Of a DNA stretch of 37,103 bases, positions 22,787 through 25,932 are shown one piece after another (position 1 is the stretch's first letter; each line of letters begins with the position of its first letter). The stretch lies in contig JAQBXK010000019.1 of NCBI GenBank assembly GCA_027625145.1, positions 1 to 37,103 of the forward strand. Reading direction: 5' to 3'. The DNA comes from Pseudomonadota bacterium. GTDB taxonomy: Bacteria; Pseudomonadota; Alphaproteobacteria; Puniceispirillales; Marisalimonadaceae. The notes beneath the pieces are model-generated. The model worked only from the letters and a program-made list of their open reading frames with translations, was not told the origin of the DNA and ran no database searches. The position numbers and the translations under genes are program-made.

Positions 22787-22810
22787 AAATAATAAAAAAT
22801 GGGAGCAATT

Positions 22811-23569
22811 ATGCAAGATCATCAAATTTTAAAAGACAAAACTATTATAGTAACTGGTGCAGCAACAGGGATTGGTCAAGCTTTTTCAATTGCAGCATCT
22901 TCTTATGGCGCAAAAATTGTAGTTGCAGATATGAATCCAGGTGACAAGACGGTTCAACTTATTAAATCTTCTGGTGGAGAAGCCATATACACTAAAGTTG
23001 ATGTAAGTGATGAAGAATCTACAAAATCTATGGCTAAAGCAGCTATTGATTGGACTGGACGTATAGATGGATTAATTAATAATGCAGCCTATTTTCGTGA
23101 AGTCAAACTTACTCCTTTTGAAGAAATCAAAATGGAAACTTGGGATAGAATTTTTGATGTAAACGTCAAAGGCATATGGCAATGCTGCAAATCCGTAATA
23201 CCTTCTATGAGAGAAATTGGAGGAGGTAGTATAATTAATATATCTTCTGTTGTAGCAGTTGCAGGACAACCAGGGTATCTTCATTATGTAGCTACAAAAG
23301 GTGCAGTTCTTGCAATGACAAAAGGTCTTGCAAAGGAATGTGGAGTAGACAACGTTCGTGTTAATACAATTGCTCCTGGATTTGTAATTACAGATGCAAC
23401 CAAGAATAGACCAATAGAGTGGCAACAAAATTTTCTTAAGGCTCGAGCTATGTCAAGAGAGCAAAGACCTGAAGACTTAGTCGGCACTGCGGTTTATCTT
23501 TTATCAGATCTTTCAGCTTTTGTATCAGGCCAAACACATGTTGTAGATGGTGGACATATTATGTATTAA
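22811..23569 (+). CDS. SDR-family NAD(P)-dependent oxidoreductase
   Basis: A classical short-chain dehydrogenase/reductase of 253 residues. I use the ATG at 22811, 5 bases after GGGAG; an in-frame ATG at 22799 adds four residues and would place the ribosome site inside the coding region. Visible are the cofactor loop TGAATGIGQAF near residue 13, an acidic residue after the second strand (VVADMNPGD) suggesting NAD preference, NNAA near 88, the catalytic Ser in NISSVVAVAG, and YVATK near 155 (Tyr and Lys). The C-terminal segment SAFVSGQTHVVDGGHIMY is typical of FabG-like SDRs. The substrate is unknown. It ends 75 bases before the truncated tRNA-Leu copy. Confidence 0.92.
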   Translation: MQDHQILKDKTIIVTGAATGIGQAFSIAASSYGAKIVVADMNPGDKTVQLIKSSGGEAIYTKVDVSDEESTKSMAKAAIDWTGRIDGLINNAAYFREVKLTPFEEIKMETWDRIFDVNVKGIWQCCKSVIPSMREIGGGSIINISSVVAVAGQPGYLHYVATKGAVLAMTKGLAKECGVDNVRVNTIAPGFVITDATKNRPIEWQQNFLKARAMSREQRPEDLVGTAVYLLSDLSAFVSGQTHVVDGGHIMY

Positions 23570-23644
23570 TTTATATCATTTCTAATAATACAACTTATAA
23601 GAAAATATTTAATTTTTACAATTATTCGCTACCGTGGTTTTAAA

Positions 23645-23700
23645 ATTTGGTAGGGATACCCGGAATCGAACTGGGAAGCATTGCGGCACTGGTTTTTGAG
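23645..23700 (-). pseudogene. Truncated tRNA-Leu copy (3' half), candidate attachment site
   Basis: These 56 bases match 25845-25900 of the intact tRNA-Leu(CAA) region at 54 positions (differences at 23672 and 23680) and lie exactly 2200 bp from it in the same orientation. The match runs from 3 bases beyond the CCA end, through the T-arm and variable arm, to the 5' edge of the anticodon loop, and stops there. One change breaks a T-stem pair, and the 5' half needed for a tRNA is absent or unrecognisable, so it cannot fold as a tRNA. A short later similarity (CACCGTAT against CACCATAT) leaves open a decayed full-length duplicate. Confidence 0.85.
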
Positions 23701-23870
23701 CTAAGTGATGACACCGTATAATTAACAGAATCAAGTAAACTTAAGGATTGCACGCGCGTCTCTCCAGGACTTCTTATGTATTGTAAACATGATCAAGCCA
23801 ATATAGTCTATTTTGGTACAATTTTTCGTACCACAAAATATTAAACAAATTTAAAAACTATTCTAATCTT
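23701..23870. other. Non-coding stretch beside the tRNA remnant, with CpG-rich patch and inverted repeat
   Basis: No gene was found. A G/C- and CpG-rich patch around the palindrome ACGCGCGT (23752-23759) is out of character with the surrounding AT-rich DNA. TGGTAC (23814-23819) and GTACCA (23828-23833) form a perfect 6-bp stem with an 8-base loop. It has no T-run on the minus strand, so it is not a standard terminator for the HAD gene. Confidence 0.5.
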
Positions 23871-24494
23871 TCATTTTAATATCTCAGTTAATCGGTAGAG
23901 TGATTTTTCTATATAATCTGCTTTATTTTCACTTTTATGTTTTAAGCCAATTCGATTATGCCAATAAACATCCATTCCCATTGCCTTTGCACCTTCAACA
24001 TCAAACGGTGATCCTGCTACAAATAATGTTTTTTGTGGAGAAGCTCTCAGTTTTTTAAGAATACCCTCGTACATTTTTGGATGTGGTTTATAAAAACCAA
24101 TCTCTTCAGCAGTAACTGAACAATCAAAGGTTATGTCAATCAATTTAATTGCTTCATTTCCTTCTTTAATAGAACAGTTAGTGGCTACTCCAAGTAAATA
24201 ACTCTTACTAAGAACTTTTAATACCTCGTCGACTTCTGGCCAAGGCCTTAGAGAAGACCATTGTTGAATAAGGTTTTGTGCTATTTTAGAATTCAAGCCT
24301 ACATCTTCAGCTGCTGATAATACTAAATCTTCATATTTCTTGTAATTAAACGTGCTATATGTGATTTCAAGATATCGTGCTCTCCATTTACGCCCCATCA
24401 ACTCTGATCCAGCTATTTCATTCCATAAAGACCAAGAGTCTATTAAGCCTGTGAGCAAATCAAAAACCACAGCATCATATTTACATTTATTCAT
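23871..24494 (-). CDS. HAD-superfamily hydrolase, 2-haloacid dehalogenase-like (type II)
   Basis: A 207-residue HAD hydrolase. I use the ATG at 24494, 6 bases after GGAG (minus-strand complement of 24501-24504); the frame is open to 24533 without a ribosome site. Motif I is VVFDLLTGLIDSW with the nucleophile Asp near residue 9; the second Asp of HAD phosphatases is missing, as in haloacid dehalogenases. Motif II is GVATNCS, motif III is FYKPHPKMY (Lys), and motif IV is AGSPFDVEGAKAMG (Asp). The last segment and the following HNRIG resemble type II dehalogenases. Whether it removes halogen or acts on another substrate is not decidable by eye. It follows the D-threonine-aldolase-like gene by 32 bases, and both lie between the two tRNA-Leu copies. 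Confidence 0.85.
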   Translation of the reverse strand: MNKCKYDAVVFDLLTGLIDSWSLWNEIAGSELMGRKWRARYLEITYSTFNYKKYEDLVLSAAEDVGLNSKIAQNLIQQWSSLRPWPEVDEVLKVLSKSYLLGVATNCSIKEGNEAIKLIDITFDCSVTAEEIGFYKPHPKMYEGILKKLRASPQKTLFVAGSPFDVEGAKAMGMDVYWHNRIGLKHKSENKADYIEKSLYRLTEILK

Positions 24495-24526
24495 TATAAT
24501 CTCCAAATTTAATAGGTCGTAATTTC

Positions 24527-25666
24527 CTACCAACCATTAGTTCTAGACCATGTGTCTGTAATCATATTATTTTCTAATATATTATAATTTGTAAATCCAG
24601 CACAGGTCAAACAAGAGTGATTAGGCAAAATTCTAACTAAACTTCCTATTGGTAATTTATCAAACCAATCAAGATTATAAATATTTATTGAGCCATGCTC
24701 TTGATGAATTTCAGATACATTAAGTCCTAACAAAGGTATTCCTGTGTCTTGATTACAAATCAAACCAAATCCAGCTTCAGGCATGAATTTATTTGCACTA
24801 GTATCTTTTGATAACGCTAATGCACCTGCATCAATGATTATTTTTTTCTTTTCATGATTATGTCCTATTACACTCGCTAGGATAGTTATTGCTATGTCTT
24901 CAATTTTACAAATACCTCTAGAAGCTTGTGCTAAATCCCAAAACATATATATACCTGCTCTAACCTCAGTTATATCATTAAGATGTGAAGCAAATAACAT
25001 AGTTGGAGTTGAACCTATGCTTATTATTGGCGGGGTTTGATTAAAATTAACCATGTTTTTAACAGAAGCTAGTGCATCTTCACGTTCTTTATTCGCGATT
25101 GATAAAATTTCTTTTTTATCATTGGTAGAATAACTATGACCTGCATGTGTTAAAATACCAATCAAATTAGTATTTTTACAATTACTAAATATTTTAGATA
25201 TTTCTAATATTTTTTGATCTTCAAAACCTAAACCACTTCTTCCTTCACCACAATCTATCTCAATAAAAATTTCAAATTTCGTGTTATTCAAATTACTAAA
25301 GTTTACAATTGCTTTAGCTACAAAAATTGAATCTAAAACTAAACGAACCAAACAATTATATTTTTGCTGAATAAAATTTAATCTAGTTAATTTTCTTGGT
25401 ATAATACAAACTGCATACAATATGTCTTTAAAACCAGCAGAAGCAAAATATTCAGCTTCTTGAAGTGTCGATACTGTTATAGGTCCTATTTCTTGATCGA
25501 GAGCTATTTTTGCAATTTCAATACTTTTTGATGTTTTAACATGAGGTCTAAGTATAGTGTTTAATTGAATACATCTTTGCCTGGCCCTAAGGCAATTTTT
25601 TTCTAAGATGTTTTTGTCTAAAATCAAACAAGGTGTCTCGAGTTCTTCTAAATTATTTATTTTCAT
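24527..25666 (-). CDS. PLP-dependent D-threonine aldolase / D-serine dehydratase-like protein (DSD1/alanine-racemase fold)
   Basis: A fold-type III PLP enzyme of 379 residues acting on a D-amino or 3-hydroxy-amino acid. The start is the ATG at 25666, 9 bases after GGAG (complement of 25676-25679); an ATG at 25681 lacks a ribosome site. The N-terminal barrel begins LETPCLILDKN; the PLP Lys should be the one in RPHVKTSK near residue 46; VSTLQEAEYFASAGF and DCGEGRSGLGF are typical of the family. The C-terminal domain has the metal-binding H-x-C in PNHSCLTC near 355. D-threonine aldolase, D-serine dehydratase and beta-hydroxyaspartate aldolase share this layout, so the reaction is left open. It is probably cotranscribed with the HAD gene. 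Confidence 0.85.
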   Translation of the reverse strand: MKINNLEELETPCLILDKNILEKNCLRARQRCIQLNTILRPHVKTSKSIEIAKIALDQEIGPITVSTLQEAEYFASAGFKDILYAVCIIPRKLTRLNFIQQKYNCLVRLVLDSIFVAKAIVNFSNLNNTKFEIFIEIDCGEGRSGLGFEDQKILEISKIFSNCKNTNLIGILTHAGHSYSTNDKKEILSIANKEREDALASVKNMVNFNQTPPIISIGSTPTMLFASHLNDITEVRAGIYMFWDLAQASRGICKIEDIAITILASVIGHNHEKKKIIIDAGALALSKDTSANKFMPEAGFGLICNQDTGIPLLGLNVSEIHQEHGSINIYNLDWFDKLPIGSLVRILPNHSCLTCAGFTNYNILENNMITDTWSRTNGW

Positions 25667-25810
25667 ATTCTTTGACTCCATAATCTATACAGAAAGTTAA
25701 AGATTTATTTTTGTTCATCAAGGTTTTTATTCTTTAAATTTAGGATTTATTTTTAAGAAAGTATTTGTATGGACAGCCTGAAAAATGCTTTTTTGTACCA
25801 CATTTAAAGT

Positions 25811-25836
25811 AAAAATTTAATCAATATATATATTGA
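25811..25836 (-). terminator. Palindrome downstream of tRNA-Leu, possible terminator
   Basis: TCAATATATATATTGA at 25821-25836 is a perfect 16-bp palindrome, 11 bases beyond the CCA end of the tRNA. On the minus strand it is followed by TTAAATTTTTAC, so it could work as an AT-only intrinsic terminator for the tRNA. Confidence 0.4.
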
Positions 25837-25847
25837 ATTAAAAGATT

Positions 25848-25932
25848 TGGTAGGGATACCCGGAATCGAACCGGGAAGCCTTGCGGCACTGGTTTTTGAG
25901 ACCAGCGTGTTTACCTATTTCACCATATCCCC
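25848..25932 (-). tRNA. tRNA-Leu(CAA)
   Basis: An 85-base class II tRNA. Read on the minus strand: acceptor GGGGATA pairing with TATCCCT (a G-U pair at position 1-72), D-stem GTG/CAC, anticodon stem CTGGT/ACCAG with loop CTCAAAA giving anticodon CAA, a variable arm with GCC-GCAA-GGC, T-stem CCCGG/CCGGG with loop TTCGATT, discriminator A and an encoded CCA. All arms pair. The 361-base gap in which it lies (25682-26042) holds no other gene. The 3' half is repeated 2200 bp away at 23645-23700. Confidence 0.96.

Follow-up and report, generated by a model that had tools for sequence, protein, structure and literature searches.

The window analysed in this study, a stretch of 37,103 nucleotides, contains a single tRNA gene as identified by ARAGORN, tRNA-Leu(CAA), on the minus strand at positions 25848-25932. 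A repeat search of the window revealed a direct repeat of 59 nt with 95% identity, whose copies at 23642-23700 and 25842-25900 have the same orientation and a spacing of exactly 2200 nt. The copy at 25842-25900 (minus strand) covers the tRNA gene from just past the CCA end to the 5′ edge of the anticodon loop, and that at 23642-23700 (minus strand) is a displaced 3′ fragment of the tRNA which stops at the same edge. Genes for a HAD hydrolase and a PLP enzyme lie between the two copies. A preliminary description of this DNA had reported much of this arrangement, namely 54 of 56 identities between 25845-25900 and 23645-23700, a distance of 2200 bp, an intact tRNA at one end with a 3′ fragment at the other, and the two genes in between, and our results agree with it in each of these respects.

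When the whole genome of the host (2,265,925 bases, completeness 95.7%) was searched with the tRNA as query, only two places were matched, the full-length gene (E 4e-42) and the fragment (E 9e-21). Two matches with these E values indicate a similarity far beyond chance, and that the tRNA is single copy. The sequence that follows the fragment (23701-23740) matched the 5′ half of the tRNA no better than shuffled sequences, 53% of which scored as well.

The HAD hydrolase gene (23871-24533, minus strand) encodes a protein matching Pfam HAD_2 and, below the cut-off, TIGR01428. Its nearest solved structure is a fluoroacetate dehalogenase (PDB 9c9e, E 9.9e-50), and the protein is best described as haloacid/fluoroacetate-dehalogenase-like. 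The second gene (24527-25681, minus strand) encodes a fold-type III PLP enzyme with the domains Ala_racemase_N and D-ser_dehydrat, whose nearest structures are D-threo-3-hydroxyaspartate dehydratase (PDB 3wqc, E 7.6e-77) and D-serine dehydratase. A D-threonine aldolase structure was far behind (E 3e-14). The comparison with solved structures therefore speaks against the name "D-threonine-aldolase-like" that the enzyme had been given, and favors a predicted D-threo-3-hydroxyaspartate / D-serine dehydratase-like protein. The functions of both proteins are predicted from their sequences.

Element ends

Approximately 140 bp to the right of every fragment have the same sequence in the relatives described below, whatever the cargo. 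A profile of this distal arm made without the window's genus matched the window at 23704-23839 (E 2.6e-19), with no second window match below E 0.8, as well as the other genome of the genus, G001 (E 1.6e-19). In addition, a BLASTN search of the host genome with an arm query derived from relatives, which included only three tRNA bases, gave a match at 23771-23833 (E 7.5e-12). On these grounds 23701-23839 (plus strand) was assigned as the distal att arm of the element family. The distal arm includes two arm-type direct repeats (23811-23834, plus strand), the degenerate TTTTGGTACAA and TTTCGTACCAC, and the pattern TTTNGTACCAC has exactly two matches in the 37 kb, at 23824-23834 and 25791-25801, one for each end of the element, where 0.05 would be expected. 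The tRNA-proximal arm is also conserved in relatives, in which it carries the repeats TTTTCGTACCA. The proximal-arm profile had no match in the window, and a single arm-type repeat, TTTTGTACCAC (25791-25801, plus strand), is all that remains there; the proximal arm of the window element appears to be shortened. The arm-type repeats are putative arm-binding sites of an integrase. Weak arm matches outside the family (in G094, G109 and G047) were set aside, as they are without a tRNA-Leu fragment.

Cassettes at tRNA-Leu(CAA) in related genomes

Besides the window's own genome, the genus (g1) is represented only by G001, whose contig ends inside the HAD gene; the family also includes genera g2, g3 and g4. 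The relatives with the same junction are presumably for the most part single cells of the SAR116 cluster (e.g., AG-915-M14, AG-426-A06 and AG-911-J10), as we take "AG" in the names of SAR116 relatives to denote single-cell genomes. SAR116 is an abundant ocean lineage, most of which is uncultured. The SAR116 tRNA-Leu/arm junction was also seen on a contig filed as Candidatus Latescibacterota (L181, JABIQT010000281.1), which is most likely mis-binned.

At least 23 related SAR116 genomes carry the tRNA 3′ fragment, which lies beside differing cargo on the 3′ side of tRNA-Leu(CAA) and ends at position 54-59 of the tRNA query, the exception being an internally truncated copy in G065. All at this one tRNA, the relatives have loci that are empty, occupied, stacked in tandem or filled by an integrase-bearing parent. 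In many members without an integrase the arms enclose only one to six cargo genes, and the cargo names that follow were read by eye from the protein sequences. Cassette A, with an amino-acid-type ABC transporter and an amidohydrolase, was found in eight genomes (G032, G036, G013, G015, G023, G029, G035 and G063), cassette B, with hydantoinase B/A and in some cases an oxygenase and a binding protein, in four (G028, G029, G021 and G064), and cassette C in two (G035 and G029). A cassette with a urea/branched-chain-type ABC transporter and an amidase is present in G015, and single-gene cassettes of about 1.2-2.4 kb are present in G068, G071, G073, G078 and G026. Several genomes have two or three cassettes in tandem, and in all eight stacks the fragment farthest from the tRNA matches it worse than the nearest does, which is expected if every new insertion enters at the tRNA.

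The preliminary description had pointed to strains with an empty site and to larger integrase-bearing elements at the same tRNA as means of checking its claims, and both were found. No empty site was seen in g1; the empty sites are in the sister genus g3, where a peptidase-like gene (c47) directly adjoins the tRNA in G018, G014, G009, G012 and G030, whereas in G026 and G028 that gene is followed by a fragment, cargo and then the tRNA. Up to the core, the left flanks of empty and occupied sites are 97.9% (G018/G026) and 98.1% (G014/G028) identical.

Cassette B with both of its arms has 98.05% identity over 6.8 kb between G028 (g3) and G029 (g2), compared to 66-69% identity between the flanks of the two genera where these can be aligned (G028 versus G035 and G032, the right flank of G029 being off its contig). 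Cassette C has 99.3% identity over 3.5 kb between G035 and G029. There is no intact integrase gene in either cassette. Lacking an integrase, cassette B has crossed between genera nearly unaltered. A truncated fragment precedes cassette B in G065 (L161:3389-3429), where the hydantoinase genes are missing, which suggests a deletion inside the stack.

Integrase genes and parent elements

There is no integrase gene between the repeats of the window element, as is consistent with the earlier proposal that an integrase had been lost or had acted in trans. Nor did the host genome, at 95.7% completeness, contain a close relative of the integrase of the family (best match E 5.6e-5, 25% identity). Larger integrase-bearing elements at the same tRNA-Leu are represented by L095, L161 and L163. 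L095 (G015) encodes an intact 370-residue Phage_integrase, a tyrosine recombinase, whose gene abuts the proximal arm with its 3′ end; R208, H318, R321, H344 and Y354 are invariant in three relatives and were taken as the predicted catalytic residues. L161 (G065) is a whole element of 12 kb from fragment to tRNA. Its integrase is N-terminally truncated, and it also encodes an SF1 helicase-nuclease, an HTH regulator and a primase-like protein. L163 (G068) is similar to L161. Cargo adjoins integrase remnants in G026 and G027, and inspection by eye showed such remnants in G028, G029 and G003 as well.

Among the proteins annotated in the integrase-bearing elements there were no relaxase or conjugation genes. 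Viral contigs did not contain the junction pattern, and no family integrase was confirmed in them; in a phage collection the integrase had distant matches only, the best listed being below 28% identity and mostly from streptococcal satellite phages. The SF1 helicase, a 1103-residue protein in L161 (6400-9711) and L162 (G071), has a C-terminal DUF559/MTES nuclease domain and matches PADLOC candidate defence models (MkoC, MkoA and Hhe). By eye, a RecQ-like protein was also seen in G071 and McrBC-like proteins in G068. On contig 27 of G028 (L123, 5250-10561), an integrase 52% related to that at tRNA-Leu is situated on the 5′ side of a tRNA-Trp. There is no tRNA repeat, but the distal arm has a partial copy 3.6 kb upstream; L123 is possibly a sister element with another target. 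An integrase remnant is also located near a tRNA-Trp in G007 (L124).

Origin of the cargo genes

Most g2 genomes with this region assembled have the HAD / PLP-enzyme pair, or only the PLP enzyme, between djlA (c9, named by search result) and acnB (c11, named by eye from its sequence). At this native position the genes are about 3-33 kb away from the tRNA, and no fragment adjoins them. Starting from djlA, G001 has acnB, fragment, arm and HAD before its contig ends, and the window has an SDR gene, fragment, arm, HAD, PLP enzyme and tRNA. The SDR gene (22799-23569) occupies the place that acnB has in G001, after djlA and before the fragment, and no acnB could be located in the window's genome. 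The fragment-arm-HAD junction is collinear in the window and G001 (89.6% over 576 nt), so that the arrangement is older than their split. DNA similarity of the window element to the native locus is limited to the two genes, whose G+C content (29.9%) is as in the flanks (29.9-30.6%). The window groups with G031 both in the enzyme tree (support 91/78) and in a tree built from four flanking proteins (91/96); as this support is moderate and the window has a long branch, the direction of the move is not certain.

Discussion

The tRNA 3′ core repeat, conserved distal arm and arm-type repeats at both ends identify the window element, at the level of sequence, as a member of a family that integrates at tRNA-Leu(CAA). 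The claim of the preliminary description that integration had occurred by a tyrosine-recombinase-type reaction at the 3′ part of the tRNA is upheld by the repeat, the conserved arm, the empty and occupied sites and the integrase-bearing kin. Site-specific integration is well supported, and our confidence in it is higher than in the fuller reading, which we nevertheless hold to be very probable, that an integrated cassette without an integrase extends from the 3′ end of the tRNA (about 25845) as far as the displaced fragment at 23645-23700, and that the resident gene pair was relocated into it.

The 59-nt tRNA-like block could also be what is left of a second, complete tRNA-Leu that arose by tandem duplication and lost its 5′ half, as tRNA duplications do occur, and the preliminary description had named such a decayed duplicate as the main alternative. 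The fragments of the relatives, however, stop at the same base beside unrelated genes, the sequence past the break is the conserved element arm rather than anything resembling a tRNA 5′ half, and pairs of empty and occupied sites exist; together these refute the alternative, leaving it highly improbable. Many of the relatives are fragmented genomes, a circumstance in which an error of assembly or binning might be suspected. The probability of such an artefact is practically negligible, given that the junction is common to the window and G001, that the titled relatives are mostly SAR116 single-cell genomes with separate records, and that element and backbone are on the same contigs.

The pair was previously thought to have entered from outside as the cargo of a mini-island, and other cassettes at this tRNA-Leu do carry transferred cargo, some of it with higher G+C. 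Acquisition of the HAD and dehydratase-like genes from outside the lineage is nevertheless unlikely, as most g2 relatives have orthologs of the pair not far from this tRNA with no fragment adjoining, the tree of the pair agrees with that of the flanking genes, and its G+C does not differ from its surroundings. It is also conceivable that the position beside the tRNA is the ancestral one and that the other genus moved the pair between djlA and acnB, since only two g1 genomes are available and the long branch of the window makes rooting unsure. We give this reading a similarly low probability, because the order djlA-pair-acnB occurs both in G008, the deepest g2 genome of the enzyme tree, and in G031, the sister in both trees, and because a fragment and arm separate acnB from HAD in G001. 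The simplest reading is that the pair was resident and moved into the cassette. Alternatively, the pair of a close relative may have been imported in a cassette and the resident copy lost, which would produce the same trees as relocation.

The sequence of events may be pictured as follows. A recombinase supplied by an integrase-bearing relative, located elsewhere in the genome or in tandem, would act on a circular cassette and recombine its core with the tRNA. As attB target, the tRNA would be restored at the proximal end of the element, and the old 3′ end would be displaced outward as the fragment that forms the distal att core. Repeated rounds of integration would generate stacks. In the lineage of the window and G001, the resident djlA-acnB pair would have ended up between the att arms, either through capture and re-integration or through cassette import of a close relative's pair with loss of the old copy. 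Given its shortened proximal arm and a genome that lacks any close relative of the integrase, the window element now looks fixed. The word "remnant" that was originally applied to it is partly apt for those same two reasons.

Integrons, whose trans-acting recombinase inserts small gene cassettes at the array's proximal end, offer a parallel. Unlike integrons, the SAR116 locus has neither IntI nor attC, its target is a tRNA, and its cassettes carry their own att arms. The closest known kinds are CIMEs, the ssrA islands of Dehalococcoides and tycheposons. CIMEs, e.g., in Streptococcus salivarius, consist of att-flanked, integrase-less cargo and form tandem stacks at a conserved gene's 3′ end, with the most decayed copies farthest from the target and with similar sizes of 1.2-13 kb (PMC7563491). 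The window element likewise keeps its att sites and has neither integrase nor transfer genes. However, CIMEs derive from conjugative or mobilizable elements, whereas the SAR116 parents have HTH regulator, DNA-primase-like and helicase genes and are more phage-satellite-like. The Dehalococcoides islands are similar in that they insert serially at a single stable-RNA gene and leave a 3′ repeat each time, with about half lacking integration genes and with catabolic cargo (PMC3146451), but they involve a serine recombinase and tmRNA as opposed to a tyrosine recombinase and tRNA-Leu(CAA). The tycheposons of Prochlorococcus are described as tRNA-bounded elements of marine streamlined bacteria with a tyrosine recombinase and nutrient-use cargo (PMC10872708, PMC11389934). 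Their likeness to the SAR116 cassettes is one of description, and compared with tycheposons as described there the recombinase-less SAR116 cassettes are small (1.2-6.8 kb) and share one pair of att arms. An additive flexible genomic island of Ca. Methylopumilus has recurrent short 3′ repeats of tRNA-Lys and variable genes, and in the available part of that account it is described with a 20-nt repeat only and no att arms or parent integrase (PMC10872708). A literature search of papers outside subscription returned no description of these SAR116 cassettes. In the literature compared, we have not seen described either a near-identical integrase-less cassette in two genera or a resident gene pair relocated into a cassette.

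Conclusions

Our results suggest that an island bounded by a tRNA fragment need not contain foreign genes. We propose tentatively, and with less than even confidence, that tRNA-Leu(CAA) is an integron-like platform of SAR116, at which att-arm-flanked cassettes of one to six genes owe their movement to the integrase that a satellite-like parent supplies in trans, are exchanged between genera and can take up resident genes, the HAD/dehydratase pair of the window being an example. The precise att sites make mobilization in trans directly testable. Potentially, the locus represents a route by which SAR116 bacteria gain nutrient-scavenging genes, such as the hydantoinase, ABC uptake, amidase and polysaccharide-related genes among the cargo, with no need for a recombinase in each cassette.
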